Source: Ignavibacteriales bacterium (GTDB lineage Bacteria > Bacteroidota > Ignavibacteria > UBA10030 > SZUA-254). From it: a DNA stretch of 64,000 nucleotides. A program made the position numbers and the translations under genes. Location of the stretch: positions 602,510 through 666,509 of the forward strand of contig JACRMQ010000006.1 in assembly GCA_016214905.1 (NCBI GenBank), given 5' to 3'. Below are positions 4,032 through 64,000 of this stretch, piece by piece; position 1 is the stretch's first letter; every line of letters starts with the position of its first letter. The notes beneath the pieces were generated by a model. It made no database searches, had not been told where the DNA came from, and saw nothing but the letters and a program-made list of their open reading frames with translations.

Positions 4032-4103
4032 TTTAATCTCCTTTAATGAATAAGTTTTTGTTTTGTTTAAAAATATTTATTGCTTATTTTCTTTAACTAA
4101 TTT

Positions 4104-5237
<1,134 letters not shown>

Positions 5238-5340
5238 CTATTTTTTTGATGGAAAAACAAATACAGCATTTATTATCTGCTGGTAATTGTAAGCAAACTT
5301 TTATTCCGGGTGCGAGATATGCAATAACAAAAACTATTCT

Positions 5341-5745
5341 TTATTCTGAGACAATTACACGTTTATTACGCTTTGCTAAAAAAATAACCAGTAACGCGGC
5401 TAATATACCACCGATTGTATCGGCTATTCCATCATAGAAATCAAGTGATCTGCCAGGGACTGTTCCTTGGTAAAGTTCGTCAAGTATCCCATAACCGACG
5501 ACAATCATTACAGTAATTATCAACCGGCGCCAATTAATATCGTGCCGGTTTTGATAAGGTGTTAGCGCCCGATAGACAAACACTCCCAATACAAAAAACA
5601 AGAATATATGAATTAATTTATCGTACGTAAATATCCTCGATGATGGAAAATATTTTGACGGTATTGATGAACCGATAAAGATCAATAAAGCCCAGGCAAT
5701 AGCCGGGAATTGATATCGTATGAAATGTTTAAAATGTATGCTCAC
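5341..5745 (-). CDS. VanZ-like membrane protein
   Basis: 134-residue integral membrane protein with about four helices. The VanZ pattern is visible as DKLIHIFLFFVLGVFVYRAL, followed by a GILDELYQ..VPGRSLDFYDGIADTIGG block, which is the family signature (the D/E-rich turn after helix 3). The biochemical role of chromosomal VanZ homologues outside glycopeptide-resistance clusters is unknown. It follows nnr by 2 nt and is the last gene of the nuoN-nnr-vanZ strand run. Confidence 0.8.
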   Translation of the reverse strand: MSIHFKHFIRYQFPAIAWALLIFIGSSIPSKYFPSSRIFTYDKLIHIFLFFVLGVFVYRALTPYQNRHDINWRRLIITVMIVVGYGILDELYQGTVPGRSLDFYDGIADTIGGILAALLVIFLAKRNKRVIVSE

Positions 5746-5747: not shown

Positions 5748-7322
5748 TCAGATATGCTTTTCAATATGAAGTAATGATTCCGGTATTAATGAGAGAAGGT
5801 CAAGAGCCATCAAACTCTTTTCACCGAATTTTATTTTGGCAAAGTCCCCCGCTAAACCGTGTAGATAAACTCCCGCAATTGCAGCATCATCCTGGCTGAC
5901 ACCCTGTGCCCATAGACCTCCAATTATACCAGTTAACACATCTCCCATTCCGGCAGATGCCATACCAGCATTGCCGGTTGAATTTATAAAAATTTTTCCA
6001 TTATCCGATCCCGTAATTGTCGGTGCCCCTTTCAGAACGCATGTCAATTTAAATTGTTTGGTGATATCTCTTACAACTTGAGGACGATTTCTATTTATTT
6101 CATCCGTGGTTAAACCTGTTAATCTTGAAAATTCCCCGGTGTGAGGTGTAATAATAAAATTAGAAGCTGCATGATTCTTTAAGATTGATAATTTTTCGGA
6201 AATATTATTCAAGCCATCGGCATCTAAAAGAAGCGGTTTCTTCCATGATGAGACTATTTTCCAAATCAATTCTGCCGATTCCGGGTTTCTCGAAAATCCT
6301 GGTCCGCAAATAACTATATCAGCCCATTGGGAATATTTATCGATAAAGTTATACGCATCTAAACTTAACGTTCCGTACTCAGTCTCAGGAAGCGGTTCAA
6401 CCATCACCTCAGTCATTTTTCTCCCCAGTATCGGATAAACCGATTTGGGTGTTCCAAGAATCACCGATCCTGCTCCTGCGCGCATCGCTGCCCGTGCCGT
6501 TAATGCTGCAGCTCCTGTCATCCCGCGTGATCCTGCTAAAAGTATTATTTTCCCTACCGAATGTTTATGCGCGTTGAAACGCCGTCTTGGCAACAATTTT
6601 TTTACATCATCAATTCCAACAATGAAATTATTTGGTTCAACTGTTTTAATAATTTCATCCGGTAAAGATATATCAATTACATCAACCTTACCGGCGTATT
6701 CTCTTCCATCGCCGATGGTTAAACCGATTTTTTTAAATCCCATTGTTGCCGTATCTGATGCGGTGACTGCATTGTTTCCAATTGTTCCTGTATCCGCATC
6801 GATGCCCGAAGGAATATCAATACTTATTTTTTTCTCCGGGCGGTTATTGATCCATTGTATCACTCCGAGTTGAGGTTCGCATACTTTCCCTTTAAATCCA
6901 GTACCAAAAAGTGCATCAATAATGAAATCTGCTTTGGGGAGCATGGATATTTTTTTCTTACTGTAATCTTGCAGTAGTTTCAGCTTCTTTGTGGTTCCAT
7001 ACTTTCGTTCTATAGTCGATAATGTGAGATAATTTGTTTTCGCATCTCCTTTCAATTCACTCGATTTTCCAATCAAAACGGTTACAACCATCCCACCCCG
7101 GACAAAAAGATGCCTGGCAATAACAAAGCCATCGCCGCCATTGTTTCCTTTCCCACACACCACAATAAACTTTTTCCCCAGAACGGGGCCGTATCTTTTT
7201 TCTATCAAATCAACGGTACCTCTCCCGGCATTCTCCATTAAGATTAAACCGGGAATTTTCAACGTGTTAATCGCGTAGCGATCACACTGTTGCATCTGTG
7301 AAGATGTTAAAACAATTTCCAC
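5748..7322 (-). CDS. nnr: Bifunctional NAD(P)H-hydrate epimerase / ADP-dependent dehydratase
   Basis: Repairs damaged NAD(P)HX. 524 residues: N-terminal YjeF_N epimerase domain (~1-215; VVCGKGNNGGDGFVIARHL and FGTGFKG..) and C-terminal ribokinase-like dehydratase domain (~235-520; LLAGSRGMTGAA, ITPHTGEFSRL and the diagnostic GMASAGMGDVLTGIIGGL). The start at 7322 is 4 nt after the nuoN stop, arguing for translational coupling with the complex I subunit, a sensible pairing for a NADH repair enzyme. Both domains look complete. Confidence 0.95.
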   Translation of the reverse strand: MEIVLTSSQMQQCDRYAINTLKIPGLILMENAGRGTVDLIEKRYGPVLGKKFIVVCGKGNNGGDGFVIARHLFVRGGMVVTVLIGKSSELKGDAKTNYLTLSTIERKYGTTKKLKLLQDYSKKKISMLPKADFIIDALFGTGFKGKVCEPQLGVIQWINNRPEKKISIDIPSGIDADTGTIGNNAVTASDTATMGFKKIGLTIGDGREYAGKVDVIDISLPDEIIKTVEPNNFIVGIDDVKKLLPRRRFNAHKHSVGKIILLAGSRGMTGAAALTARAAMRAGAGSVILGTPKSVYPILGRKMTEVMVEPLPETEYGTLSLDAYNFIDKYSQWADIVICGPGFSRNPESAELIWKIVSSWKKPLLLDADGLNNISEKLSILKNHAASNFIITPHTGEFSRLTGLTTDEINRNRPQVVRDITKQFKLTCVLKGAPTITGSDNGKIFINSTGNAGMASAGMGDVLTGIIGGLWAQGVSQDDAAIAGVYLHGLAGDFAKIKFGEKSLMALDLLSLIPESLLHIEKHI

Positions 7323-7326
7323 AAAA

Positions 7327-8742
7327 CTAAGGAATCTGATTTATGATGGAAAGGATAGAACTTGGATAAACACCAATTCCGGTTATGAATATAATTATTG
7401 CGATGAGAACGAGATAGCTCAACTGAGATACTTTAGCAGGTAGAATCTCTTCTCCTCCTTTAAAATACATAACAACAACAAGTCTTAGATAATAATAGAC
7501 CGAGATTACACTTGTCAGAACGCCAAGAATTGCCAGCCACGTTAAATTAGAATTAACTGCTGAGATGAAGATATAATATTTTCCGAAGAATCCGGCGAAT
7601 GGCGGAATCCCGGCGAGTGAGAACATCAAGACAGATAATATCGCGGCAAGTGCAGGTTTTTTTGTTCCAAGTCCTTTGTAATCGTCGAATGAAAGATTTT
7701 TTTCCTCACCTGTTTCAAGCATAGAAATTACACCGAACGCGCCCACGTTCATCAACATATAAGATAGCAGATAAAATAAAATTCCATCTCGTCCTAATTG
7801 GTTAGCTGCAGCCAAACCGCTGAGCATATAACCTGCATGGGCAATGCTTGAATATGCGAGCATTCTTTTGACATTGTTTTGTGAGATTGCAATTATGTTA
7901 CCGACTATCATTGATAACGCGGAGAGTAGAATCAAGACTGTTTTGATTTCCGGTGATGTTGAATTGATGAACAAAACAACGAACGCGGAAAACGCCGCCG
8001 CTTTTGCGCCCGTAGCCATGAAACCGGATATCGGGGTTGGTGAACCTTGATACACATCCGGTACCCACATATGAAAAGGAACTGCACCTACTTTGAATGC
8101 AAGTCCGATTAATATCAATCCGATTCCAACCGACATGAAGTATGAATTACTAATGTTTGTTAAATTTTGGACAATTATGTCGATATTAGTCGATCCCGTT
8201 GCGCCGTACACCAAAGCAATTCCATATAAAAGAAAACTTGTGGCAAAAGCTCCAAGTAAAAAATATTTTAATGCCGCCTCGTTAGATAATTGACGGTTGC
8301 GGAAGAATCCTGCTAATACATAAAGACAAATCGACATCAATTCTAAACCGATGAATAATAATATTAAATCGGCGGCAGATGCCATTAACATCATTCCGAT
8401 TGTCGAGAATATTATCAGCAGATAAAATTCACCGATCTTTGATTGTTGGTAATTTAAATATTCCTTGGAAAAGATTATCGTAAATAATGCTGCAGAACAA
8501 AATATAATTGAAAAATAACTGCTGTATCCTCCGATTATAATCATCGAATTTAAAACTGTACCTCTCAACGGCATGGTTACTATAGCGAGATAAGAGGTTA
8601 CAAACAAACCGATTATACTTATCCAATAACTCAGCCGCTCGCTCTGCTTCACCAATGCTTCGGTGAGCAAAACGATTAGCGATACGATTGTAAGAGAAAT
8701 TAATGGCGCTATTGCAAAAAGTTCAGAGCTTAGTATGTTCAT
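7327..8742 (-). CDS. nuoN: NADH-quinone oxidoreductase subunit N
   Basis: Antiporter-like proton-pumping subunit of complex I. 471 residues with about 14 hydrophobic segments and the Proton_antipo_M core: GLELMSICLYVLAGF (conserved Glu), FKVGAVPFHMWVPDVYQG (conserved Lys and HxW), QNNVKRMLAYSSIAHAGYM. It is separated from nuoJKLM (15360-19808) by nhaD and a five-gene plus-strand block, whereas nuoN normally follows nuoM directly. A long stem-loop (8858-8904) lies upstream and could be in its leader. Confidence 0.96.
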   Translation of the reverse strand: MNILSSELFAIAPLISLTIVSLIVLLTEALVKQSERLSYWISIIGLFVTSYLAIVTMPLRGTVLNSMIIIGGYSSYFSIIFCSAALFTIIFSKEYLNYQQSKIGEFYLLIIFSTIGMMLMASAADLILLFIGLELMSICLYVLAGFFRNRQLSNEAALKYFLLGAFATSFLLYGIALVYGATGSTNIDIIVQNLTNISNSYFMSVGIGLILIGLAFKVGAVPFHMWVPDVYQGSPTPISGFMATGAKAAAFSAFVVLFINSTSPEIKTVLILLSALSMIVGNIIAISQNNVKRMLAYSSIAHAGYMLSGLAAANQLGRDGILFYLLSYMLMNVGAFGVISMLETGEEKNLSFDDYKGLGTKKPALAAILSVLMFSLAGIPPFAGFFGKYYIFISAVNSNLTWLAILGVLTSVISVYYYLRLVVVMYFKGGEEILPAKVSQLSYLVLIAIIIFITGIGVYPSSILSIINQIP

Positions 8743-8857
8743 TGCTTTTACAAATGTCTGTTAAATGTTTTGATAAATTAGGGATTTTTTGTGAAAGAAA
8801 CAAGAATAACACTTAGAATCCACAAGTCTGCACCGTAATAATTGTGTTCAAATATTA

Positions 8858-8904
8858 CTTCCCGAAAGATGTGGTTAATCGAAATCGTGGTAACTTTCGG
8901 GAAG
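8858..8904. repeat. 11-bp inverted repeat in the gap upstream of nuoN
   Basis: CTTCCCGAAAG (8858-8868) and CTTTCGGGAAG (8894-8904) are perfect inverted copies around a 25-nt spacer. There is no T-run on either side, so it is not an obvious terminator. The 8743-9068 gap holds no gene I can support. The dyad could be an mRNA stem in the nuoN leader or a regulator site; its geometry resembles the dyad at 9750-9799. Confidence 0.6.
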
Positions 8905-9068
8905 TTAATTATTGCAAAACATACCTCACCTCACTCCCCTCCTTTGTATGTCCCGAAGCGATTATAAAGAGAGGAGACGAAAGGAATGGTAAAAATATCA
9001 TTATGACTTAAATATGGTTCAGGTATATTTTGCTTGCATCTTTAATAGAAATGGTATATCTTAATTAT

Positions 9069-9422
9069 ATGAACAATTGCAAAACAAAAATATTATTTAT
9101 CATATCTTCAATTGTGTTTTTGTTTTTTGCTCTTTCATGGCAAGTTCAAATTGTCCATACTGCTTCCCATTCAACAATTTTACAAATATCTTCAATTGAA
9201 ACATCTACACGGTCGGATTCCCCTGTCCCTGTACCAAAATTATTAGCAAAGAGACCCAGACCATCTGTAATTAAAGTTGAAATACAATCCGGCATAATAA
9301 GAATTCCGGATCAATTTGCTAGAGTAGAAAAATTTGTCATTATCAAAACAGCAAACCTTTATCATTTAAAGCCACAATTCTCCTTTGTAAGATATCTTCC
9401 CCGCGATCCGCCGTTAGCGTAG
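9069..9422 (+). CDS. Small single-helix membrane or exported protein, unknown
   Basis: From the ATG at 9069 the product is 117 residues. A short basic start (MNNCKTK) leads into one strongly hydrophobic stretch (ILFIISSIVFLFFALSW), which acts as a signal anchor or uncleaved signal. A Ser/Pro-rich linker (SPVPVPKLLAKRPRPS) and a ~45-residue extracytoplasmic tail ending LPRDPPLA follow. The same frame is open from 9030, but codons before 9069 do not look like protein. I recognise no family. It is the first gene of the plus-strand block between nuoN and nhaD. Weakly supported as a real gene: the only arguments are the signal-like N-terminus and strand agreement. Confidence 0.5.
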   Translation: MNNCKTKILFIISSIVFLFFALSWQVQIVHTASHSTILQISSIETSTRSDSPVPVPKLLAKRPRPSVIKVEIQSGIIRIPDQFARVEKFVIIKTANLYHLKPQFSFVRYLPRDPPLA

Positions 9423-9469
9423 TTCCCTTAAGTATCACCATAACTCGATCTTTTTAAGCAATATTGAAG

Positions 9470-9495
9470 TTTTAGTATAAAACTAAATACTAAAA
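9470..9495. repeat. 9-bp dyad upstream of small membrane ORF
   Basis: TTTTAGTAT (9470-9478) and ATACTAAAA (9487-9495), separated by 8 nt, lie about 48 nt before the small gene at 9543. This could be an operator; AT-rich, so chance is possible. Confidence 0.4.
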
Positions 9496-9542
9496 ATCTC
9501 TTGCTTTTATATTTATTTCTTTTTCAAAAACGGAGAACTACA

Positions 9543-9680
9543 ATGAAAACGAATGAAAAACATGTTGAGCCAAATCAGCAGAAAATTGATGAAGGCACTC
9601 CCATCCAATTAATAATTTTACTTATCATCATTTTGTTATCTATTTCGGGGATCATCTTAAAATCAATTGGACTTTTTTAA
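9543..9680 (+). CDS. 45-residue single-span membrane peptide
   Basis: ATG at 9543 is preceded by GGAGAA 8-11 nt upstream, a reasonable ribosome binding site. The product starts MKTNEKHVEPNQQKIDEG, a charged hydrophilic ~19-residue segment, then a single hydrophobic helix (residues ~21-39, rich in I and L) and a short SIGLF tail: a typical N-in/C-out small membrane protein. No family recognised. It is followed 70 nt later by a 12-bp dyad and then a cation/proton antiporter gene on the same strand, so it could be an accessory peptide of that transporter (inference from position only). Confidence 0.55.
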   Translation: MKTNEKHVEPNQQKIDEGTPIQLIILLIIILLSISGIILKSIGLF

Positions 9681-9749
9681 TTCTGAATTAGAAGTAAATC
9701 GATTAGAAAAGAGGACCATTCTAATCAATTTTAAGACACAAGATGCATG

Positions 9750-9799
9750 GGTGTCACTTTCAGAAATGAATCACTTGGTGGACTATGGAAAGTGACACC
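9750..9799. repeat. 12-bp perfect inverted repeat upstream of antiporter
   Basis: GGTGTCACTTTC (9750-9761) and GAAAGTGACACC (9788-9799) are perfect inverted copies with a 26-nt spacer. They lie between the small membrane gene and the antiporter at 9963. No T-run follows, so a terminator is unlikely; a regulator dyad or structured leader is possible. Confidence 0.6.
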
Positions 9800-9962
9800 T
9801 ATTGCACGGTAGACATTAAAAGATAATATGAATTTAGTGACTAAATTGAAAGAGTGAACGTTTATCGTGCATTTTAATATAGGTTGTAGCTAAAATTTTA
9901 CTGTAAATTAATAATCTGTTTGTAAGATTGGATTTTCATCACTAAAAATTTTATATTCGCAC

Positions 9963-11228
9963 ATGAATGTAGCACCTGTAATCGTCTTCGTTGGAATACT
10001 TATTTTTCTAGCCCATCTTTTCGCGGGAATTTTTAGAAGAACAAAGATCCCTGATGTTTTATTTCTTTTCATAATAGGTTTAGTATTAGGACCGGTTTTA
10101 AGCATTGTGACACCTGATAAATTTGGTGCTGTTGGTTCGATTTTTACTACCATCACTCTTGTAATAATACTATTCGAAGGCGGGATCAGCATTCCTTTTG
10201 ATAGCATTCGATTTGCAATTCGCGGGGCGCTGCCGCTTACAATACTTAATTTCTTCGCTACAATGATTGCGTTTGGTTTTATCGGAGTAATATTCAGTGA
10301 ACTCGATTTGATGAAATCCTTGATGCTCGGTGCAATGGTGGGCGGTACATCTTCTGCTATTGTAATTCCTCTAGTACGACAACTTTCAATGCATGAGAAT
10401 TCAAGATCAATTCTCGTTCTTGAATCAGCCATCAGCGATGTCCTATGCATTGTGGTTGTGCTCGGTTTCCTTGAGGCGATGAGATTTGGTGAATTACAAT
10501 TAGGTTTGATGATAGGTAAGATGATTGCATCTTTTTTGTTGGCTATAATTTTAGGAGGCTTTGGTGCATTCGTTTGGTCGTTAATATTACATAAAGTTAG
10601 GACATTGCAGAATTCATTATTCTTAACTCCGGCATTTGTTTTTATAGTTTTTGGCATTGTTGAATTATTAGGTTATAGCGGAGCCATTTCATCCTTGGCG
10701 TTTGGTTTTACAATCGCAAATATCAATCTCGTAAAAATACCTTTATTGAAGAAATATATTTCTAAAGAACCAATCTCATTGAACGAGCCGGAGAAACTAT
10801 TTGAGGCGGAGATTGTTTTTTTGTTGAAAACATTTTTCTTCGTTTATATTGGATTATCGATTCAATTCTTAAATGTTGGGTGGATAATTTTCGGACTACT
10901 TTTAACTATCGCGTTGTTCGCATTGAGAGTTCCTGTAGTGAAATATTCTATATCCAAAGCGACACCTGTAAGCGATGTTCGACTAATGTCTGTTATAGTT
11001 CCCAAAGGATTGGCTGCAGCAGTCTTAGCATCACTTCCATTTCAACAAGGAATCGAAGGTGGAGAGTTTATCCAAAATATCACCTATATAGTCATACTCT
11101 TCAGCGTGATATTTACATCAGTCATGATTGTTTTAATTAATAATCCGGCAATAAAAAAATATTACAATACTTATTTTAAAAACTTTCATATATCCTCAGA
11201 TACAAATACCGAAAATTCTGAACTATAG
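9963..11228 (+). CDS. Cation:proton antiporter (CPA family)
   Basis: 421-residue integral membrane transporter exchanging monovalent cations for protons. About 12-13 hydrophobic segments span residues 5-400. The Na_H_exchanger fold is visible through GLVLGPVLSIV, LVIILFEGGISIPFDSI (helix 4 region) and VGGTSSAIVIPLVRQL followed by LVLESAISDVLCIVVVLGF (the conserved Ser-Asp pair of helix 6). The C-terminus is short, with no TrkA-type regulatory domain. It stands 25 nt before the GNAT-nitrilase gene on the same strand. Cation specificity (Na, K) cannot be read from sequence. Confidence 0.88.
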   Translation: MNVAPVIVFVGILIFLAHLFAGIFRRTKIPDVLFLFIIGLVLGPVLSIVTPDKFGAVGSIFTTITLVIILFEGGISIPFDSIRFAIRGALPLTILNFFATMIAFGFIGVIFSELDLMKSLMLGAMVGGTSSAIVIPLVRQLSMHENSRSILVLESAISDVLCIVVVLGFLEAMRFGELQLGLMIGKMIASFLLAIILGGFGAFVWSLILHKVRTLQNSLFLTPAFVFIVFGIVELLGYSGAISSLAFGFTIANINLVKIPLLKKYISKEPISLNEPEKLFEAEIVFLLKTFFFVYIGLSIQFLNVGWIIFGLLLTIALFALRVPVVKYSISKATPVSDVRLMSVIVPKGLAAAVLASLPFQQGIEGGEFIQNITYIVILFSVIFTSVMIVLINNPAIKKYYNTYFKNFHISSDTNTENSEL

Positions 11229-51249: not shown

Positions 51250-52107
51250 TTACAATAACAACGCAGGAAGCAAACAAAGAAAGGCGATCCTTGTAAGAAT
51301 CAAAAATCTTTCCATTGCAGATATACTTAAGTGAAAACGGTAATAAAGGAAACCAACCCACAACAATCCATTTAAGATCACACCGACAAAGAGGATAAAT
51401 GAGGCTGTACCCCAGGTTGTTGCTGATACAACAAATATAAGTGAACTTACTCCAAGAAGAGACATAGAGATATCTACCGCCTTCACTATACCAAATCGAA
51501 TTGGAACTGATGTTTTTCCCCATGCCTTATCGGCAACGAAATCTCTGATGTCTAAAATAATTTCTCGAGCAAATATCAGAAAGAACGCTCCCATGGCAGA
51601 AAATAGAAGCGGCAAAGAGAAGTTCCCAACACTCATTCCAAATATTATCGTGAAAGAACTTGTAAGGGCAGTAATTGCATTCGCCCAAATCCCATATTTG
51701 TTGTTAACAAAGGAATACACCGATAATAAAGCAATGACAATTATATCGATAAATAGAGCAAGACTGTTAAGTAAGAATGAAAAATAAATTGAGACGATCA
51801 CAAGTATAGGTATCAATAACAAGACCTGCCTCCGGGATAATTTACCACTAGGTAGAGCACGATAAGTATGATTGATTTTATCTTTATCCAAGTCAATATA
51901 ATCATTCAATGCAAATCCAAATCCAGACGTTAATACAACAACAGCAAAGGTAATTAATGCTGTCATCATAGAAGGATTCAAAGTTGTTGCATAATAGACC
52001 GTTGCCGCAATAGTTCCTGCAATAGATGATATGAATAATCTTAGTGTAGAAATTATGGCGATAAAGATTGTAGTAAAGTTATTCCCCACTTTTTGTGGGA
52101 TCCTCAT
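51250..52107 (-). CDS. UbiA-family prenyltransferase
   Basis: Integral membrane enzyme attaching an isoprenoid chain to an acceptor. 285 residues, about nine helices. First Asp-rich motif NDYIDLDKDKINHTYRALPSGKL and second DIRDFVADKAWGKTSVP are intact. The first motif most resembles archaeal-type geranylgeranylglyceryl-phosphate (DGGGP) and related polyprenyl transferases. I choose the ATG at 52107 because GAGGAA lies 9 nt upstream; the ATG at 52122 is also in frame. It overlaps the upstream membrane protein gene by 29 nt. Acceptor unknown; lycopene-cyclase-like genes 8-10 kb away suggest C40/C50 isoprenoid chemistry. Confidence 0.82.
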   Translation of the reverse strand: MRIPQKVGNNFTTIFIAIISTLRLFISSIAGTIAATVYYATTLNPSMMTALITFAVVVLTSGFGFALNDYIDLDKDKINHTYRALPSGKLSRRQVLLLIPILVIVSIYFSFLLNSLALFIDIIVIALLSVYSFVNNKYGIWANAITALTSSFTIIFGMSVGNFSLPLLFSAMGAFFLIFAREIILDIRDFVADKAWGKTSVPIRFGIVKAVDISMSLLGVSSLIFVVSATTWGTASFILFVGVILNGLLWVGFLYYRFHLSISAMERFLILTRIAFLCLLPALLL

Positions 52108-52942
52108 TTGGGTGTTCCTCATAATATTTTTTGTAATGTCCTTCTAATTCTTTCAATACATATTCAAGTGGGTATTTCCTTATTAAAGCACCCTTATATG
52201 CACCATACACTATAACAATAAGTAGAGCTAAAATTCCTCCAAATAGAATTGTATTACTTCTTGTCTTCACCTCTTTCCAGTTGGCGTATAATTCATCCAC
52301 ATTCCTTCCGAGTGAGTCTATCTCTTGTTTGACTTTGACGCTGTCAAGAATCTGGTTCCCGACCAAACTAAGATTTGTAATTTCCTCTCTAGCTTTTTCA
52401 TATGCTTGTAATGACTGATCTTTTGGAAAAAGATAAATAGTCTCCTTGTCGGCTAAAATACCAAGCGGTAAGATTAAAAGAAACAAAGTAACATATGTTA
52501 TTAATATCCTCTTGAAATACTTTTTTGAGATCTCATTATTATCAAACTTCTTCGAATTTTGATACAGTAGTAAAGCCTTCCAACATATAAATCCTATCCC
52601 GATTCCTATAAGGAAAAGAAGTGGATAAAACATACCAATTACAATAAGCAGTAATAAAACGATTACCAACCAAATTGATAGCATCTGACCAAATTCATTC
52701 TCTCTCAACTTTATGACAAGTTTGTGATAAAAAGTCAAACTTTGAATTGAAAGAGCCCCTAGAATAAGAGCGATGGTCAACTCATTCGCTGGAGTTATTC
52801 CTTGTCGAACAGCAGGCACTATTTTTGATAGAAATAATATCGTTAATGCAAAAAGTGCTCCACTATAAAGCCTTTCAATCCAAGACGTGACCCATGCATT
52901 TCGCATCACGTTTTTTTGTAGAGCCGGAATATTCTGAGCCAT
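52079..52942 (-). CDS. Membrane protein of unknown function with extracytoplasmic helical domain
   Basis: 287 residues with about six predicted helices: residues ~28-45, 55-72, 85-130 (two), 145-165 and 233-252. Between the fifth and sixth is a ~65-residue soluble helical stretch (DQSLQAYEKAREEITNLSLVG..VKQEIDSLGRNVDELYANW), probably coiled coil on one face of the membrane. The tail is hydrophilic (HYKKYYEEHPNEDPTKSGE). AGGAAAC lies before the ATG. It is translationally coupled to the UbiA gene downstream. No family recognised. Confidence 0.7.
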   Translation of the reverse strand: MAQNIPALQKNVMRNAWVTSWIERLYSGALFALTILFLSKIVPAVRQGITPANELTIALILGALSIQSLTFYHKLVIKLRENEFGQMLSIWLVIVLLLLIVIGMFYPLLFLIGIGIGFICWKALLLYQNSKKFDNNEISKKYFKRILITYVTLFLLILPLGILADKETIYLFPKDQSLQAYEKAREEITNLSLVGNQILDSVKVKQEIDSLGRNVDELYANWKEVKTRSNTILFGGILALLIVIVYGAYKGALIRKYPLEYVLKELEGHYKKYYEEHPNEDPTKSGE

Positions 52943-57149: not shown

Positions 57150-57206
57150 CTCACACGAACAAATATCACAATACAATACAACATAAAAATGAAAGGAGAA
57201 TTAACT

Positions 57207-58208
57207 ATGGGACACAATCTAAACGAAACAAACGGCCAGGTATCCATGATGTATGTTGGTGAAGTGCCTTGGCATAAGCTCGGCACGAAGCTCGACCATC
57301 CGGCTACAGCTCATGAAGCAATTGAGTCTGCTGGTTTGGGATTTACAGTCGAAAAACTTTCCCTTAAGACGGAGGCTCTTGATCTTCCGGTTGAAAGTCA
57401 CTTTGCAACGGTTCGCGGCGATACACAGCAGGTGCTCGGTGTGGTCGGGTCACGATACGTACCTATACAGAACCAAGAGGCATTCTCTACCTTCGACGCT
57501 CTGGTCGGAGAAGGTGAGACGATCTACCACACCGCAGGAGCGCTTGGTAAAGGAGAACGGATATGGCTCTTGGCGAAGTTGCCCGACTACATTAGGGTCA
57601 AGGGCAACGACTTGGTGGAGAAGTTTTTACTCCTCACCAACTCCCATGACGGGAGTAGTGTGGTTAGAGTGAAGCTCACACCGGTGCGTGTAGTATGTGA
57701 GAATACACTGTCTCTTGCTCTGAGCGGAGGAGAACAAGAAGTACGCATCAAGCATACTGCTCACGCTTCAGAACGAATGAAGAAAGCTCATGAGATTCTT
57801 GGGCTCACTAACAAACTCTACGAGGAGCTTGATAAAATCTTCAACCAAATGAGCAATATTAGAATCGATGGACGGGTGTTGGCTGATTACGTAAAGAAGG
57901 TCTTCCCCGATCCGCCTACCAACGGCCATTCACATCGAAAGAACTCGATTCGAGAGAAGGTGTTCGAGCTAGCACACGTTGGCAAGGGAGCCGATCTCTC
58001 TCTGGGCACGCTTTGGGGTGCGTATAACGCGGTGACGGAATACGTGGACTACTATCGCCAGTTGACCGCCGATGATTCGACCCGGCTACGATCAATTTGG
58101 TTCGGATCCGGTGAAAGGATAAAGAAGCATGCCTTCAAGGTTGCTGTGAACATAATCAATGGTGGAGTCGAGACGGCAGGCATTAAACATGATTACTCTC
58201 GCAACTGA
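57207..58208 (+). CDS. DUF932 phage/plasmid-like protein
   Basis: 333 residues from ATG 57207 with AAAGGAG 9 nt upstream. Matches the DUF932/TIGR03299 family found on plasmids and islands: VPWHKLGTKLDHPATAHEAI at the start, VVGSRYVPIQNQEAFSTFD, HDGSSVVRVKLTPVRVVCENTL split around VRVVCENTLSLAL, and a C-terminal RSIWFGSGERIKKHAF. The biochemical role of the family is unknown. The stop overlaps the start of the broken SymE-like gene (TGATG), so the two were coupled. Confidence 0.9.
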   Translation: MGHNLNETNGQVSMMYVGEVPWHKLGTKLDHPATAHEAIESAGLGFTVEKLSLKTEALDLPVESHFATVRGDTQQVLGVVGSRYVPIQNQEAFSTFDALVGEGETIYHTAGALGKGERIWLLAKLPDYIRVKGNDLVEKFLLLTNSHDGSSVVRVKLTPVRVVCENTLSLALSGGEQEVRIKHTAHASERMKKAHEILGLTNKLYEELDKIFNQMSNIRIDGRVLADYVKKVFPDPPTNGHSHRKNSIREKVFELAHVGKGADLSLGTLWGAYNAVTEYVDYYRQLTADDSTRLRSIWFGSGERIKKHAFKVAVNIINGGVETAGIKHDYSRN

Positions 58209-58419
58209 TGTGCTCAAGAAAAACGATTGAGCTTCCCACCTACGAAAGGTTTATCACGGGCACTACGATTCTGAAACTAGTACACCACATCCCGTGATTC
58301 GCATAGGTGGGAAGTATCTTGAAACATTCGGTTTCCTGATCGGTGATACGATTAAGGTGAAATTGGAACACTGTCGTATTACAATTATTAAACAATTTCA
58401 AACAAACACATCCAACTAA
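58208..58419 (+). pseudogene. SymE-like toxin gene, frameshifted
   Basis: The ATG at 58208 overlaps the DUF932 stop. Its frame gives MCSRKTIELPTYE and ends at TGA near 58296. A second frame, open from just after 58229, gives YHGHYDSETSTPHPVIRIGG, KYLETFGFLIGDTIKVKLE and CRITIIK, ending at TAA 58417. The second part is recognisably the SymE/AbrB-like fold (P-x-I-R-x-G-K-Y-L-E..GF..GD). The RK-x-I-x-L start is in the first frame, so about one base is gained or lost around 58240-58255. Alternatively GTG 58294 starts a 41-residue remnant. Intrinsic terminator directly downstream. Confidence 0.65.
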
Positions 58420-58424
58420 TCCTT

Positions 58425-58462
58425 AAGCTTGGCTCTAAAATGAAGAGTCAGGCTTTTTTTTT
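58425..58462 (+). terminator. Intrinsic terminator after the DUF932/SymE-like unit
   Basis: 12-bp stem AAGCTTGGCTCT / AGAGTCAGGCTT (two G-T pairs) and ten T. Confidence 0.85.
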
Positions 58463-58542
58463 ACCATTTTGATATCGTTCACATCTTTTTCGGAAGTATT
58501 TTCTAACCTTTCATATCAAATCAATATTAAAAGGAACCGAGC

Positions 58543-59496
58543 ATGTGTGAACTCACCGAAACGATTGATCAGTATATCAGATATTGTAGATACGATAAAA
58601 ACTTAAGCAGATTAACAATTAAAGCGTATCAACAAGATCTCAAGCAATTTACCCATATTATTGGGAAGAATTCTTCTTTGAAGAAGATCAATAAAGAAAA
58701 TATTCGAAATTATATTCAAGAGTTATATGCTCTACACCTAAAAGAAACCAGCATTAAGAGAAAAGTTGCTGCGCTTAAAGCATTCTTGCGATATCTAGAA
58801 TACGAAGATAAGATATCTGTTAGTCCATTTAGAAAATTAAACATTCGAATACGTGTTCCTAAGAAAATTCCAAGATACCTAAGCATGAATGATATTCGCC
58901 TTCTTTATTCTCAAGTCCGAAATACTCTTTCAAACGTTAAGGTAGAACCGTCAATTTCAAATCCGGATAGAAAATCAATTAAATCTTTATTCGCAATTCA
59001 GACTGAATTGATAATTCTGGAAATCCTTTTTACAACAGGTATCAGAGTAAGTGAACTATGTAATCTTAATATTGATGATGTTGATCTAAATAAGAGAAAC
59101 ATCCGGGTCTTAGGAAAAGGCTCCCGAGAACGTGACATTGCAATCACAAACGATGAAACGATTCTGGTTATAGAAAGATACATTAGACTAAGAAAACGAT
59201 TGGCTAATGGCTCCTCCCCATTATTACTGAACCGCTGCCTGAATAGAATCCAACCTCATTCGATAAGAAGTATTCTAAAAAATGTCTCCAGCTTTGCATG
59301 TTTGAACTATAAAATAACACCACACATGTTCCGACATACGGTAGCAACTATGCTCATTGAAAATGGTTTGGATACGAGATTCGTCCAGAAATTTCTTGGG
59401 CATAGTTCGATCCTTACTACCCAAATTTACACTAATCCCACAACTTTAGCAGAAAGACAACAGATTAGCATGAAACACCCTCGAAATTTTGTTTAA
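58543..59496 (+). CDS. Xer-type tyrosine recombinase
   Basis: 317 residues with AAAGGAA before the ATG. N-terminal SAM-like core-binding domain (~8-90) and catalytic domain with the full set R168 (TTGIRVSEL), K192 (LGKGSRERD), H261-x-x-R264 (HMFRHTVA), H287 (LGHSSI) and nucleophile Y296 (QIYTNP). A 20-residue insertion (~128-148) precedes the catalytic Arg helix. Its stop lies 10 nt before a palindromic site that recurs inverted at 61727, so the likely job is DNA inversion of the segment downstream; alternatives are dimer resolution or element transposition. Confidence 0.9.
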   Translation: MCELTETIDQYIRYCRYDKNLSRLTIKAYQQDLKQFTHIIGKNSSLKKINKENIRNYIQELYALHLKETSIKRKVAALKAFLRYLEYEDKISVSPFRKLNIRIRVPKKIPRYLSMNDIRLLYSQVRNTLSNVKVEPSISNPDRKSIKSLFAIQTELIILEILFTTGIRVSELCNLNIDDVDLNKRNIRVLGKGSRERDIAITNDETILVIERYIRLRKRLANGSSPLLLNRCLNRIQPHSIRSILKNVSSFACLNYKITPHMFRHTVATMLIENGLDTRFVQKFLGHSSILTTQIYTNPTTLAERQQISMKHPRNFV

Positions 59497-59506
59497 TTTT
59501 TTGGAG

Positions 59507-59531
59507 TTAGGATAACTAGAGATTATCCTAA
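59507..59531 (+). repeat. Left palindromic site (predicted inversion site)
   Basis: Perfect 9-bp arms TTAGGATAA and TTATCCTAA surround a 7-nt asymmetric core CTAGAGA (59516-59522). The 19-nt string GATAACTAGAGATTATCCT recurs exactly, inverted, at 61727-61745. It lies between the tyrosine recombinase gene and the TTG start of the FAD gene (2 nt). Confidence 0.85.
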
Positions 59532-59533
59532 AA

Positions 59534-60712
59534 TTGAAACACGCGTTTTATGACGTAATCATTCTTGGCGGGGGGATTTCAGGATTATTACTTGGGAATG
59601 AACTTTCTAAGCTACACTCAGTCTTGATTATAGAAAAAGAAACTAATATACCCAGCAATAAGTTTTGGTTGACTAAGAGAAACTGTGTAATGGGGAATGC
59701 TGAACTGTTGTCCTGTGTCGATTCCTATTATACAAACCTTGATTTTGTAGCTTCCGATCTTACAACATATCGTTGTTCTGGCGATTATGCATTATGGAAT
59801 ACAAATCTTTTGGTTTCCAATTTACACGAAACGATAAAAACTCAAAACGGGCACGTGCTCAATGCTCACAAGTTTTATAGTTACTATTATTCCAATAATA
59901 AAATTATTGTGTTGGCAAATTCTTCAGAATATTCTGCCTCTTTAGTGATAGATTGCATGGGTTATTCATCACCGATCATCTACGCAAAAGGTATTGTGCA
60001 AATTATCGGGTATTATATTCTTCACGGGAAAATTTTAAAACTTAAAAAAGATATTGCTCCCATTGGACTCAGCAACGTAATGATTGATCAAAAACCAAAA
60101 TACCTAGAGATATTTCCACTTAGCAATGGTGAGGCGTATTCAATTCTGATTGTCCCAGAAAGAAGCATTCGATCTTCTACGAATATTCAGAAAGAATTTG
60201 AATTTATTATTAATGAATCAAGTTACAACCAATATTTTCTTAACCACCAGTCAAATGTACAATCTTTATGGGGAATTATTCCCGTTGGATTTTTGAGACA
60301 AAGAGCTCTCGATCGTATTTATTTCTTTGGTGAGGCAGGCCAACTTAATCCTGGAACAACAGCAACCTGCCTCACGAAAATATTGTACTCATACAAAAAA
60401 GTTGCAGAATTTATCTCAACAAATTTAAGAAATAACACGTTAACTCAATCTGATTTGGACAGAGACCTAAGTTCGATGAATAGATTTAATAGAAAATATC
60501 AATTGCATCTTTTTCAGGATATTCTAAATTGGAACTCTGACGACTTCAAACAATTAGTTATTGGTATGAACGATTTAGGAGATAAGTTGGTAAACGATAT
60601 CATTTTTGGCGAATTAGATCCCAAAGATATAATGCGATTTGAAATTATATCTAAGTTATTAAAAAATAAGCGTTTTTTTATCTTAAAACCTTTCTTAAAA
60701 TCGGTTATGTAA
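59534..60712 (+). CDS. FAD-dependent protein of the lycopene cyclase / geranylgeranyl reductase type
   Basis: 392 residues. N-terminal dinucleotide motif VIILGGGISGLLLGNEL, followed by IIEKE at the second strand; VIDCMGYSS in the middle; and RIYFFGEAGQLNPGTTATCLTKIL, the FAD-contacting GEA segment of CrtY/CrtL-like cyclases. The last ~100 residues are helical. The start is a TTG at 59534, placed 2 nt after the left palindromic site; a stop at 59513 in the same frame excludes an upstream start. No ribosome binding site is visible. Substrate unknown; a cyclic carotenoid or other polyprenyl product is suggested by the nearby CarR-like gene. It converges on the next gene, with stops 2 nt apart. 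Confidence 0.72.
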   Translation: MKHAFYDVIILGGGISGLLLGNELSKLHSVLIIEKETNIPSNKFWLTKRNCVMGNAELLSCVDSYYTNLDFVASDLTTYRCSGDYALWNTNLLVSNLHETIKTQNGHVLNAHKFYSYYYSNNKIIVLANSSEYSASLVIDCMGYSSPIIYAKGIVQIIGYYILHGKILKLKKDIAPIGLSNVMIDQKPKYLEIFPLSNGEAYSILIVPERSIRSSTNIQKEFEFIINESSYNQYFLNHQSNVQSLWGIIPVGFLRQRALDRIYFFGEAGQLNPGTTATCLTKILYSYKKVAEFISTNLRNNTLTQSDLDRDLSSMNRFNRKYQLHLFQDILNWNSDDFKQLVIGMNDLGDKLVNDIIFGELDPKDIMRFEIISKLLKNKRFFILKPFLKSVM

Positions 60713-60714
60713 GT

Positions 60715-61716
60715 CTATTTAGAGAAGATCTTAAAAAATTCATTTATTGCAGTATCGTACTGTGCTATGAATTGAATTACCATGATTATGCTTATTAATA
60801 AGCTGGGAGAATCTTTTAAGCTAATCAATGGGAATTGATCCCGCTCCATAATTAGTTTCTCTCTAATTTCAGAAAGTGTCATATCAATCTCAATTTTATC
60901 CTTTAACGAGATCAATTCATTTGGAATATTCCGTCGTTTCTCTTCTATTTCTTTTACTTTCTTAATGATGTCGTTCTCGTATATTTTTTTGAGAACATAT
61001 CTTGGATAAAAACTATAGCAAAGTGTCAAAGGCAGAAAAAGGATTACTGGAAAGATTAAAAGTTTTCTGGTAATAATTCCGTCAGGATCAAGAATAAAAT
61101 TTGCAGTAAGAGTACCCCTGAATCCCAAATAAATCCCAGCGACTCCAATTGTAGAGGTGATAACAAAAAAATAATTAAGATTTTCAAATTCAAGCGGCAC
61201 AATGTTTCTGGTAACTTCCAACCTCTTTTCTGAATCTTCTAGAGATTTAAACATCAAGAGTGAGAAAATAAAAAAGGTTAATAAATAGGAACCAATATAA
61301 TAAATTGAAATTGAGCTGATCGCCAAGTAATATTTTGCAAATCCTTCCATAGGATAACCACAATTCCACATGATAATTCCACCAACTATAGTTAATGGAA
61401 TACCGATCGTGTTTTTCCAGAGCGTAGAATTCATTCGTCGCGAATAGACAAATATCTTCGGTAAATCTTCCTCTGAAATTGTAATTACCTCATTGATTTG
61501 GGCCAGCAGACTGCTACCGTATTTTCTTATAAACCAGACTAAACCGTAACCTACTCCACCCACAAGAATGCCGTCAAAATAGAATATCCAGGAGTTAAAT
61601 AATTCCTTTGCGATTATTGGACCTTGATAAAAATAGCTAATTAGAAAGCCAACTAAACAGAGCGCCAAGCTGATGCCGCACCAAATAATAATATTAAAGA
61701 AACTTTTTATCAGCAT
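60715..61716 (-). CDS. Polytopic membrane protein of unknown function
   Basis: 333 residues with about seven or eight hydrophobic segments (e.g. IIIWCGISLALCLVGFLISY, GIPLTIVGGIIMW, YYFIGSY-like IYYIGSYLLTFFIFSLLM, LLIFPVILFLPLTLCYSF) and a soluble charged helical region near residues 250-300 (VKEIEEKRRNIPNELISLKDK). No family recognised. The ATG is 10 nt inside the right palindromic site, the mirror image of the arrangement at the FAD gene. A promoter outside the site points at it in the present orientation. Confidence 0.7.
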   Translation of the reverse strand: MLIKSFFNIIIWCGISLALCLVGFLISYFYQGPIIAKELFNSWIFYFDGILVGGVGYGLVWFIRKYGSSLLAQINEVITISEEDLPKIFVYSRRMNSTLWKNTIGIPLTIVGGIIMWNCGYPMEGFAKYYLAISSISIYYIGSYLLTFFIFSLLMFKSLEDSEKRLEVTRNIVPLEFENLNYFFVITSTIGVAGIYLGFRGTLTANFILDPDGIITRKLLIFPVILFLPLTLCYSFYPRYVLKKIYENDIIKKVKEIEEKRRNIPNELISLKDKIEIDMTLSEIREKLIMERDQFPLISLKDSPSLLISIIMVIQFIAQYDTAINEFFKIFSK

Positions 61717-61726
61717 AATTTTGGTA

Positions 61727-61747
61727 AGGATAATCTCTAGTTATCTT
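61727..61747 (-). repeat. Right palindromic site, inverted copy of 59507-59531
   Basis: Minus strand reads AAGATAA, CTAGAGA, TTATCCT: the core is identical to the left site and in opposite orientation, and the outer arm has one mismatch. Both sites are followed inward by AAAATT directly at the start of a gene. Confidence 0.85.
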
Positions 61748-61780
61748 TATTACAATTGTTTATCAACGAATATTGAATGG

Positions 61781-61809
61781 AATCTATAAAAAAAGATTGA
61801 GAAATTCAA
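61781..61809 (-). promoter_or_regulatory. Inward-facing sigma70-type promoter outside the right site
   Basis: Minus strand TTGAAT (61804-61809), 17 nt, TAGATT (61781-61786). Predicted start near 61774, so the transcript crosses the palindromic site and enters whichever gene is next to it. Confidence 0.5.
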
Positions 61810-61917
61810 ATACAGACGTTCAGGTAAGTGACAAAAGAACGCTGGTTTAATTAACTCACAATTTCCTACCAATCAACTTATCTATTATCAGTTAAACTAT
61901 GTAAATTCGTCCAATGA

Positions 61918-62757
61918 TCACACTTCCTCTTTATTCTTATTCCTAATTAATAAATGCTTAGTACCAAGCTTTGTATCATCTGCGAAATATTCATAATACA
62001 CTAAAAAAGATGGGGTCGCCAATATCATCCAAATTATTAGTTCTTCAATCGGAAATCGAAAACCAATTATATTGATAAATCCTATGAATCCATTTCCTGG
62101 AAAGACCCATTGACCTGCATATAATGCGGCTAGCTCGAACATTAAAAGAATAGGAAATGAAAATAGACTTACCACAAAATATCTGTCACAGAATTCAGGA
62201 TATTTGAACAAAAATAAAATCAGCGGGAATATCACAAATACAACTCCCACCCACAAATAAAAATATGGTATAGAGAGAAACTCACTTTTTTCAAAAAACA
62301 TAACCGATACAGTCAAAACAAGTATCAAGAAAAAGAGCCACAAATATTTGATTCGTTTGGATAACCTATCTGCTCGTTTTCCATTATCAAAATAATGTTC
62401 ATAGAAAAGCACTACCCAAAGTCCCCATAATAAACCAAATATATAAACCTCGATAGTTGCGAGACCAAATATTCTGAGCGGAAATATACTTTGAGGTACC
62501 AACCATGATCCATTATATGCTGCCAAAGCATCAGCAAAAAGTGATAATGGTATTGAAAATGGAATAACAAATGCAAGGCTTTTTAATGCAATTCCCGGAT
62601 TTTTGCAAATAATGTAAACAGATGGAACCCCGAAATACAATAAAGTAGAAATCAAGAGACTCGTGCGAAACCATATTGTAATCAAAGTTGCAATAACCGC
62701 AAATATAAGTATCCTGAATATATCTTGACTCATTTCAACCTTGTAAAGCGTAAACAT
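61918..62757 (-). CDS. Lycopene cyclase domain protein (CarR/CrtYcd type)
   Basis: 279-residue membrane protein with seven to eight helices containing two copies of the CrtYc/CrtYd-like unit. First: GSWLVPQSIFPLRIFGLATIEVYIFG; second: GQWVFPGNGFIG followed by RFPIEELIIWMILATPSFLVYYEY. The PxEEL-type motif in the second unit is the family's key acidic pair; the first has only TIEVY. Related proteins cyclise lycopene (bacterial CrtYcd, myxobacterial CarR, fungal fusions) or act on C50 carotenoids. No phytoene synthase or desaturase is in the window. Extended -10 promoter upstream. Confidence 0.8.
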   Translation of the reverse strand: MFTLYKVEMSQDIFRILIFAVIATLITIWFRTSLLISTLLYFGVPSVYIICKNPGIALKSLAFVIPFSIPLSLFADALAAYNGSWLVPQSIFPLRIFGLATIEVYIFGLLWGLWVVLFYEHYFDNGKRADRLSKRIKYLWLFFLILVLTVSVMFFEKSEFLSIPYFYLWVGVVFVIFPLILFLFKYPEFCDRYFVVSLFSFPILLMFELAALYAGQWVFPGNGFIGFINIIGFRFPIEELIIWMILATPSFLVYYEYFADDTKLGTKHLLIRNKNKEEV

Positions 62758-62798
62758 AAGAAAAGAGATTAGTAATAAATCTATTCTGTGTTTTATTT

Positions 62799-62807
62799 AT
62801 TATAGCA
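62799..62807 (-). promoter_or_regulatory. Extended -10 promoter of the lycopene-cyclase-domain gene
   Basis: Minus strand TGCTATAAT (TGn plus perfect TATAAT); -35 is weak. About 42 nt before the start at 62757. Confidence 0.55.
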
Positions 62808-63130
62808 TAATTTTTGCAGAAATAGCCAACGCGAATATCCTCAGCTCGTCGCTAATCTAGTGAGGCAGGTCATTACGTTTCTCGGCCCTCTTTAAAAAAT
62901 ATCCTATCTCCCGCTTATCTTTTTGTCCGAACGATCTAAACAATACATTGATTGGTTTACAGTATAATTCTATCAAACTAGAACTCAAGAACTCTGTTGT
63001 CTAAAAATCACGAACCTTGCGTTGATATTAATGCTGGTCTAGGAAGTAGCAGATGCTGCTTCCTGTTTAATAGAAACGTCCTAGTTATATCTCATAATGA
63101 AACTCTGGAGAGTAGGTATAAAATGTATCA
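62808..63130. other. Gap with one hairpin, no supported gene
   Basis: The only structure I see is GGAAGTAGCA / TGCTGCTTCC (63042-63063, 10 bp with one G-T), about 70 nt past the end of the E1-like gene. It lacks a T-run on the minus strand and has only TGTTT on the plus strand, so it is at best a weak terminator. Confidence 0.4.
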
Positions 63131-63994
63131 TTAATCTGTCCGAAACAAGTTCCAATACTTTGTGGCTTTGTTTATGTGCTGATATTTTCTTTGATCACAG
63201 CAGATACATTTTAGATCCGGTTTCCTATCCCACATCTGGATTTCCTTGAATCCACAACCGAAATCAAATAGTGCAAAATTAGGTATCTGCGGATAATCCG
63301 TCATCTGGGCTCGTACCATATCCGCAGTCACCAGAAGTCCCGCGAACATTGAAATAAATGGCAGAGCTGCGTCTATTGATCCTTGATTTGTCTTGATTTG
63401 TGTCGTTGAGCACGTTAGTGCATCAACCCGAACAGTTTCTGGGAATCGATCAGACAAACAATCGTCGCGCCCGGGGATATGTCTGCCGTGATTCACACCC
63501 CAATTTAAAGTTGTAGAAGAATGAATCATGAGCGGAGGGATATTATTCTGCATCGACCATCGGACGCCGTGATCGTTCGCTAAAGGAAGCCACATGTCAA
63601 AATTACGTTCACTTCCCTGAGCCTGCATAACATACTCGTTCCACCAGCCGGGAAAAGCCTTAGTATTGATCTTCGAGGCACTGAAGTAGGCAGCAACAGT
63701 CTCTGCTTTGTTTTGCCCAAAATTATTTCTTCCGAAAATAGGAGACCTATTGAAATTTTCCACCTTTACTACGTCCTTATCGAGGATGGTCAGCTCACCT
63801 GCCAAACCAGTGAGTTTTAGACAATAGGCCGCCGATGATCCGACTGATCCTGCCCCAACCATAAGTATACGTCCCGCATTGACACAAGTGGGATACGAAA
63901 TATGCTGTGGCTTTTGTTCTTGGTTATAGATAAATCTGAATAGATTGAAAATCCCATCTTCAATCAATTTCTCTTGGGGAAATCCTATAGCCAT
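63131..63994 (-). CDS. E1/ThiF-like adenylating protein (5' end may lie outside the window)
   Basis: At least 287 residues. Adenylation core: GRILMVGAGSVGSSAAYCLK (ATP loop, ~41-60), TILDKDVVKVENFNRSPIF (D-D-N-R residues) and FGQNKAETVAAYF (Lys). A possible catalytic Cys is in DALTCSTTQIK. The C-terminus has a cysteine cluster (FDFGCGF and LKCICCDQRK) that could bind zinc. Such E1-like proteins activate ubiquitin-like or sulfur-carrier proteins; plasmid versions occur in PRTRC-type and ubiquitin-like conjugation operons. Two sense codons precede the ATG up to the window edge, so an N-terminal extension (such as an E2-like domain) cannot be excluded. Confidence 0.78.
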   Translation of the reverse strand: MAIGFPQEKLIEDGIFNLFRFIYNQEQKPQHISYPTCVNAGRILMVGAGSVGSSAAYCLKLTGLAGELTILDKDVVKVENFNRSPIFGRNNFGQNKAETVAAYFSASKINTKAFPGWWNEYVMQAQGSERNFDMWLPLANDHGVRWSMQNNIPPLMIHSSTTLNWGVNHGRHIPGRDDCLSDRFPETVRVDALTCSTTQIKTNQGSIDAALPFISMFAGLLVTADMVRAQMTDYPQIPNFALFDFGCGFKEIQMWDRKPDLKCICCDQRKYQHINKATKYWNLFRTD

Positions 63995-64000
63995 CTTAAA

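Follow-up and report, generated by a model that had tools for sequence, protein, structure and literature searches.

DNA inversion is usually described as the turning of a promoter or the swapping of versions of one surface protein. In the G segment of phage Mu and the C segment of P1, convergent gene sets lie in an invertible segment beside the gene of the recombinase (Gin or Cin), a serine recombinase that works with an enhancer and swaps alternative tail-fibre gene versions, with no exchange of cassettes, while integrons are tyrosine recombinase platforms that capture promoterless genes. Invertons, or invertible promoters, are inverted repeats flipped by a nearby recombinase and bring about phase variation, as set out in PMC8748976 and PMC11892184. 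Acinetobacter dif modules (pdif, XerC/XerD) are bounded by inversely oriented Xer-type sites, often hold toxin–antitoxin pairs, and invert and shuffle between plasmids. Here we analyze a window of 64,000 nucleotides (nt) from an Ignavibacteriales bacterium (assembly GCA_016214905.1, contig JACRMQ010000006.1, positions 602,510 to 666,509; coordinates below are those of the window unless a locus is named), in which two convergent genes lie between inverted copies of a palindromic site, beside the gene of an Xer-type tyrosine recombinase. Judged from this sequence and its relatives, the segment is very probably an invertible and exchangeable two-gene cassette worked by the adjacent recombinase.

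Results

The locus comprises the following features, of which the last is a neighbour outside the sites.

59507–59531 (+): left predicted recombination site, TTAGGATAA-CTAGAGA-TTATCCTAA, a 25-nt palindrome (9-7-9) with 9/9 arm pairs
61725–61749 (−): right predicted recombination site, inverted, with 8/9 arm pairs and the same spacer, CTAGAGA
58543–59496 (+): Xer-type tyrosine recombinase, 317 amino acids (aa), complete frame, PF00589 and PF02899
59534–60712 (+): enzyme arm, a lycopene-cyclase-related flavin adenine dinucleotide (FAD) protein, 392 aa, TTG start 2 nt inside the site
60715–61716 (−): partner arm, a polytopic membrane protein, 333 aa, convergent with the FAD gene and starting 8 nt inside the site
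58425–58455 (+): terminator-like hairpin upstream of the recombinase gene (consensus scan, 4 found against 2.2 expected in the region)
61918–62757 (−): polytopic membrane protein of 279 aa next to the cassette and directed into it, with 7 hydrophobic segments

Both sites contain a 19-nt string, GATAACTAGAGATTATCCT, at 59511–59529 (+) and, exact and inverted, at 61727–61745 (−). A preliminary description of this DNA, made from the letters alone, had reported this pair, which is real and exact in both copies, with the left copy placed at 59513–59531, two positions too high. Its palindromes around CTAGAGA are perfect on the left and one pair short on the right, its convergent two-gene content and complete recombinase gene with both Pfam domains stand, and the genes do start just inside the sites, the start codon of the FAD gene being corrected to TTG. 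None of 100 window shuffles gave two matches to the 19-mer (up to 3 mismatches allowed), and a search of the whole 3.3-Mb genome with its first 18 bases returned the same two exact copies and one 3-mismatch match elsewhere. The two convergent genes, whose stops lie 2 nt apart, are the only ones between the sites, and their frames and that of the recombinase are all open. The consensus scan found no terminator between recombinase and cassette and none at the convergent stops, as had been claimed for the latter; it gave two overlapping terminator-like matches inside the FAD gene (60268–60285) and the hairpin at 58425–58455, which would insulate the recombinase gene from upstream genes of the surrounding island. 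The shared spacer is asymmetric and not its own complement, and because identical asymmetric spacers lie inverted, inversion rather than excision is predicted.

The cargo pair of the window was found in the opposite orientation, between inverted sites of its own, in a genome of the same class but another family (G489, locus L154), where the order is recombinase, site TTAAACGAAGGATAACTAAAGGTTAT, membrane protein (+), FAD protein (−), inverted site. Identities to the window proteins are 50.5% (FAD), 47% (membrane) and 37% (recombinase), which means that the cargo has diverged less than the recombinase. On Aliarcobacter plasmids, inverted AATAATAGGATATTATA sites downstream of a recombinase gene enclose two convergent genes. 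Comparison of pACRY43158 with pM830MA (L031 and L032) gives a 3,458-bp cassette (6951–10408) that is 99.9% identical and reversed; the breakpoints coincide with the sites, and the flanks align in direct orientation at 100% and 99.8% identity. An 823-aa cassette gene (L031 1937–4407) is intact in pACRY43158 and split in pM830MA. Five cargo families occur in both orientations with the recombinase on the same side (window/L154; L031/L032; L047/L056; L049 and L067 versus L062; L060/L104), and within the ATP-grasp cluster of L031/L032 the locus L038 is likewise opposite to L090 and L103. In 18 of the 76 loci from the genome scan described below the contig runs out no more than 250 nt past the recombinase on its downstream side, against 2 of 76 within the same distance on the upstream side, and eight of the 18 visibly stop at the site (L052, L053, L070, L071, L075, L080, L084 and L085); most likely, the sequenced sample contained both orientations. 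The search of relatives for both orientations that the preliminary description had proposed as a check has thus found them (G489 against the window, L031 against L032), and together with the contigs that break at the site and the within-locus spacer identity reported below it speaks well for its claim of inversion by the adjacent recombinase. Neither outcome named there as refuting has come about: relatives hold both orientations, and the motif does not recur through the genome as an operator. Read from their sequences, the Aliarcobacter plasmids show both inversion and exchange in nature, presumably by way of this enzyme; inversion is strongly supported from relatives and would by extension apply to the window strain.

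To survey the breadth of the family, an alignment of recombinase N-termini was used to scan contigs of genomes, keeping the best 80 loci of at least 593 stretches in at least 500 relatives. A recombinase frame was recognized by motif in 76 of the 80 (L045, L051, L059 and L072 were dropped, as was L041 from the viral scan), and these 76, together with the window and eight loci from plasmids, phages or viruses, make up the 85 loci analyzed. Bracketed segments, defined as inverted-repeat pairs with a score of at least 16 adjoining the recombinase, are present in 48 of the 85 (41 downstream and 7 upstream of the recombinase), and all 48 are convergent; random anchors in the same loci gave an inverted-repeat pair in 21 of 1371 cases, some of them probably on true sites. 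The count of 48 is probably a lower bound, because at least L094 and L074, among the 37 loci without a bracketed segment, hold inverted site pairs that the search missed. The extra pairs in these two loci suggest neighbouring cassettes, and in L074 the spacer there differs from the recombinase-side spacer. L031/L032 and L116/L120 are each two views of one cassette; the latter, from Lachnospiraceae bacterium 3-2, is a glycosyltransferase (GT)/nucleoside triphosphatase (NTPase) cassette between 109-nt inverted repeats, flanked on both outer sides by a recombinase gene. In L040, an inverted repeat lying upstream of the recombinase reached the score and was removed by hand as unlike the site. The records of the family belong to Bacteroidota, Campylobacterota, Bacillota, Cloacimonadota, Delongbacteria and Chitinispirillales, or to members of these.

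Sites across the family loci share the motif GATAA-N7-TTAT. When the site cores of 44 of 49 distinct loci were aligned (13 of 16 matches between the two sites being required), left and right cores proved identical at 15 of the 16 positions in all 44 loci and at the first position in 98%, while just outside the core the left/right identity drops to about 0.3–0.8, and lower further out. Between loci the spacers vary, with 29 distinct among 43 and a mean identity of 0.47. Spacers that are the same within a locus and varied between loci form the pattern expected of strand exchange across the spacer, and a rule close to this one is reported for Acinetobacter dif modules in PMC13141974. Where a start codon could be assigned (85 gene ends), it lies at most 12 nt from the core in 66, so that a flip would leave the leader outside and the coding sequence inside. 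Among the 76 cassette recombinase genes with 40 nt or more of downstream sequence, 53 have a core no further than 250 nt past the stop, against 0 of 42 ordinary Xer genes, a control of which only the site-motif part is used, its flanks being at most about 1.5 kb and its inverted-repeat part (0/42) weak; a core precedes the recombinase start in 11, and 59 have a core in at least one of the two places.

The window recombinase itself matches PF00589 (2e-36) and PF02899 (1e-16), and its residues R168, K192, H261xxR264, H287 and Y296, which we take to be the catalytic ones, fall in invariant columns of our alignment (A1). Together with 86 further cassette recombinases it forms one clade as against ten other Xer proteins (Shimodaira–Hasegawa-like approximate likelihood ratio test 99, by a quick tree method), within which, as a long branch, its place is unsure. 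Three other identities were considered and rejected: a host XerC/XerD equivalog (TIGR02224, 217.8 bits against a cut-off of 335.15; TIGR02225, 211.7 against 329.6; and the clade separate from the ten Xer proteins), an integron-type integrase (TIGR02249, 93.3 bits against a cut-off of 265), and a serine invertase of the Mu/P1 type, the window enzyme being a tyrosine recombinase by Pfam. Its best plasmid matches are from Aliarcobacter, at 39%. Among 395 genomes of the phylum, seven, the window's included, hold this recombinase type at 117 bits or more and all others score at most 69; a bracketed convergent segment is present in five of the seven (the window, G489, G141, G264 and G238), with each cassette arm of G264 split into two frames, and in G246 the contig ends just past the site.

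Cassettes also appear to be swapped, because similar platforms carry different pairs with homology ending at the sites. Plasmid pAFAEC of A. faecis shares its recombinase with A. cryaerophilus, and the flanks match at 97.6% and 90.8% identity, but the gene pair that they enclose is another one and homology stops at the sites. Likewise, the recombinases of L086, L091, L093 and L100 have 84–93% DNA identity and stand beside four different cassettes (Thoeris-like, GNAT/methyltransferase, GT/NTPase and ATP-grasp/NTPase, respectively). Placed on the recombinase tree, the cargo classes of 37 loci require 30 changes, against a mean of 29.3 for shuffled labels, the 14 classes being those with at least two members, assigned by us from BLAST clusters and Pfam matches.

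When 50 cargo proteins, and a few others, were scanned with Pfam, a usual layout emerged in which an enzyme faces a partner, and the convergent pair recurs as a unit, sometimes with one or two genes added. Enzyme arms are glycosyltransferases, ATP-grasp, serine hydroxymethyltransferase-like, aminotransferase, methyltransferase, spermidine-synthase-like, UbiA, CDP-alcohol transferase, polyprenyl synthase, β-ketoacyl synthase (KAS) III and lycopene-cyclase-like proteins; partner arms are AAA/STAND-type NTPases, pentapeptide or HEAT proteins, or proteins without an assigned family. The cassette at L077 7420–9569 is a Thoeris system, with ThsA (7.8e-100) and a TIR partner, in a PADLOC run that among the Thoeris-type loci covered L077 only, and L086 and L118 are Thoeris-type by BLAST cluster, convergent between inverted sites of the GATAA-N7-TTAT type and served by the same recombinase type. 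L033, which is outside the 85 loci, has by eye convergent SIR2/STALD-like and TIR-like genes (3548–5721) between such sites, again with this type of recombinase beside them. Neither cargo protein of the window was recognized by PADLOC, nor were four of five large NTPases; the fifth gave a weak partial match.

Forty of 51 cassettes were sorted by their arms, leaving out the second views L031 and L116, the Thoeris-type L077, L086 and L118, the GNAT/methyltransferase cassettes L037, L039 and L091, and the unassignable L081, L088 and L115. A partner with at least four hydrophobic segments is present in all eight cassettes with a lipid or isoprenoid enzyme (L049, L062, L064, L065, L067, L110, L154 and the window) and in 2 of the 32 others (L050 and L157), a difference with a p value of 6e-7 that depends on our own classification and on related cassettes, which are not independent. 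In Thoeris, one protein makes a signal that is sensed by the other, and both genes are required at once. By analogy with Thoeris, the hydrophobic-partner pattern suggests that the cassettes may hold maker/receiver pairs. The two window genes, which had been taken for unrelated alternatives, are probably a functional pair instead; the cross-phylum family and the exchange of cassettes had escaped the preliminary description altogether.

Of the two window proteins, the FAD protein matches PF05834 (1.8e-10, above the gathering score) over the N-terminal profile positions 1–164 of 380 only, and scores 40.1 against a cut-off of 209.5 for the NCBIfam lycopene cyclase model TIGR01790. Searching 150 relatives, 26 locus genomes, plasmids and viral contigs for its relatives gave only one 40-residue match, in one genome; within the 79 genomes of G489's family, the part of the 395-genome phylum set that was searched, only G489 has a full-length match, and the matches in 31 other genomes are short and weak, nearly all in the N-terminal FAD-binding part. 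Its AlphaFold model has a predicted local distance difference test score (pLDDT) of 35 and was not used. The membrane arm has no family above cut-off in Pfam and NCBIfam scans; a first search gave two weak matches in the 150 relatives, a profile search of the 395 phylum genomes found it in the window's genome and G489 only, and a profile search against the sequences of solved structures gave no match. A distant homolog (22%) stands opposite a UbiA prenyltransferase in a cassette of the same kind (L065).

A model of the membrane arm built from three sequences is of low confidence (pLDDT 60, predicted template modeling score 0.60). Alignment with VIA-align nevertheless placed insect odorant or gustatory receptors in all of the first 15 rows (Z 8.1–11.4, 259–287 residues), the first unrelated row having Z 7.3; helical bundles can reach Z values like those of the receptor rows by common arrangement, and Foldseek gave no significant match (E at least 0.1). 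The seventh transmembrane helix of insect receptors carries the motif TYhhhhhQF, according to PMC9998090, which also states that no prokaryotic Orco relatives occur in the proteomes screened (2023). The shorter hhhhhQF, without TY, is found in the last helix of both the window protein and its L154 (G489) homolog (6201–7193, −); it is found somewhere in 4 of 110 other cargo proteins and is absent from the L065 homolog (L065_2m). A later paper on insect-receptor-like proteins across life may already list bacterial ones. We regard the possible likeness of the modelled membrane arm to insect receptors as a lead rather than a result.

Genes just outside cassettes may supply a third component. The 279-aa neighbour at 61918–62757 has no family above cut-off in the Pfam and NCBIfam scans and is a candidate member of the cassette only. 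In the L155 locus a small gene, TIR-like by eye (8291–8752, −, of the reverse complement), lies outside a spermidine-synthase-like cassette and points in. The window cassette itself is part of an island (57195–64000, also L029) that contains a DUF932 gene and a ThiF-type E1 gene (63131–63994) and, further right and by eye only, a JAB-type gene, an E2-like gene and an integrase (L029 1051–2062, 13644–14798). About 6.4 kb left of the recombinase is a gene that by eye encodes a UbiA-like prenyltransferase (51250–52122, −), in the same region as the isoprenoid-type cargo.

Discussion

The cassette would work as follows. The recombinase would bind the arms of the sites, pair the two GATAA-N7-TTAT sites, exchange strands in the 7-nt spacer and invert the segment. 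As the sites lie at the gene starts, each flip would swap the gene joined to the recombinase-side leader with that joined to the distal flank, so that the other gene would follow the recombinase and the first would face the distal flank. The same sites would be the limits of cassette exchange between platforms, and the window pair would consist of an isoprenoid-cyclase-like flavoenzyme facing a polytopic membrane protein. We infer that this recombinase is the one that acts and that flipping alters expression, and the role of the pair is proposed on the same footing.

Several findings weigh against this account. Inversion is read from relatives of the window organism rather than from its own strain, and the contig-end signal could partly reflect other assembly repeats. 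Contig ends cut 19 of the 85 loci and a further 18 have neither a bracketed segment nor a nearby contig end, while G226, one of the seven phylum genomes with the recombinase, has one site of which a second copy was not found. In Bacteroidota-like loci the distal flank carries an inward TAnnTTTG motif in 7 of 29 cases, against 5.2 expected from shuffles, and an outward one in 2 of 29. Orientation is not 50:50, the enzyme lying next to the recombinase in 26 and the partner in 10 of the 36 downstream-type cassettes that we could assign, by our own assignments (p 0.011). Finally, Thoeris cargo, both genes of which are needed, sits badly with a strict either/or switch.

Such a switch, in which a fixed promoter in the flank reads whichever gene faces it and two phenotypes result, is nonetheless a serious possibility, to which we give somewhat less than even weight. 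The window genes, and most others, which start at most 12 nt from their sites, leave no room for promoters of their own, and distal flanks tend to be long (with a median gap of 219 nt, the next gene on the + strand in 18 cases and on the − strand in 22). What speaks against it is the near-chance frequency of distal-flank promoter motifs, the recombinase side of the window, which also reads inward without a terminator, and the recurrence of the genes as conserved pairs, which suggests joint rather than alternative use. Among 18 other loci the best sigma-70 scores on the distal flank average 8.7 in the inward and 8.2 in the outward direction; transcription into the cassette could come from both flanks. 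For the window, a fixed right-hand promoter (TTGAAT-17-TAGATT) toggling the two genes had been proposed; it can be read, but because it matches 8 of 12 consensus bases, below the scan threshold of 9, and because the 24 promoter-like matches of the scanned region stand at chance level (20.3 expected), we count it as unsupported.

The locus could also be primarily a platform for cassette exchange, selected for the capture and swapping of pairs, with inversion as a by-product and both flanks transcribing, a view that we find plausible but would not favour. It accords with cargo that is unlinked to recombinase phylogeny and with different cassettes beside recombinases of 84–93% DNA identity, homology breaking at the sites; ordinary homologous recombination in the flanks could do the exchanging, however, no free or excised cassette was seen, and strict convergence and contigs that break at the site fit active flipping. 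That the imperfect palindrome is merely a regulator's operator, as its location at gene starts might suggest, is highly improbable and was rejected, since the motif is not repeated through the genome, relatives show opposite orientations, and spacers follow the locus.

The reading that we prefer remains a cassette that the adjacent recombinase would flip and whose sites would bound its exchange. A bolder version of it, which we put forward speculatively and consider rather unlikely as a whole, is that these loci form an undescribed cross-phylum flip-and-swap class, in which a recombinase platform inverts and trades convergent maker/receiver pairs, a small-molecule or lipid enzyme being set against a possible sensor of its product; flips would alternate maker and receiver, with a brief overlap of both proteins, and the window would pair an isoprenoid cyclase with a membrane protein of the insect smell/taste-receptor fold.

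Comparison with Known Systems

Each element of the cassette has a known counterpart, be it in inversion by tyrosine recombinases, in the convergent segments of Mu or in dif modules. We found no published description of convergent pairs flipped by a dedicated recombinase, nor, in the literature, of the combination of elements, its cross-phylum breadth or the enzyme/partner rule; our search did not cover Milman et al. 2023, reportedly a systematic survey of gene-altering inversions, which may contain some of these loci. In the present family a dedicated recombinase appears to invert whole gene pairs, an anti-phage system included, and the pairs appear to be exchanged at the very sites of inversion, which raises the question why two partner genes should be placed under alternating control. 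The signature of recombinase, GATAA-N7-TTAT, two facing genes and inverted site offers a means of finding new enzyme/partner and defence pairs. Thoeris (ThsA/ThsB) is in this setting a passenger of some cassettes and not the cassette system itself.

Invertons flip a promoter, whereas the cassette flips two whole genes and the flanks stay; an invertible promoter reading outward was rejected for the window, where the segment holds two inward-reading genes with starts 2 and 8 nt inside the sites. Like the G segment of Mu and the C segment of P1, the window has a convergent invertible segment beside its recombinase gene, but its enzyme is a tyrosine recombinase. With integrons the cassette shares a tyrosine recombinase platform, from which it differs in its two inverted sites and two facing genes (attC and attI were not searched for). 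The inner motif of pdif sites, ATAA-6 nt-TTAT, resembles the ATAA-7 nt-TTAT of the cassette sites, yet pdif has a 6-bp spacer, distinct XerC and XerD arms and several modules alternating on a plasmid, whereas in the cassette family the spacer has 7 nt, each platform brings a recombinase of its own and usually holds a single cassette, and the convergent genes begin at the sites; an Acinetobacter-type dif module was rejected for the window on account of the 7 nt between ATAA and TTAT and the perfect 9-7-9 palindrome of its left site. If confirmed, the cassettes would be a further means of trading genes, built on a logic like that of integrons and dif modules.

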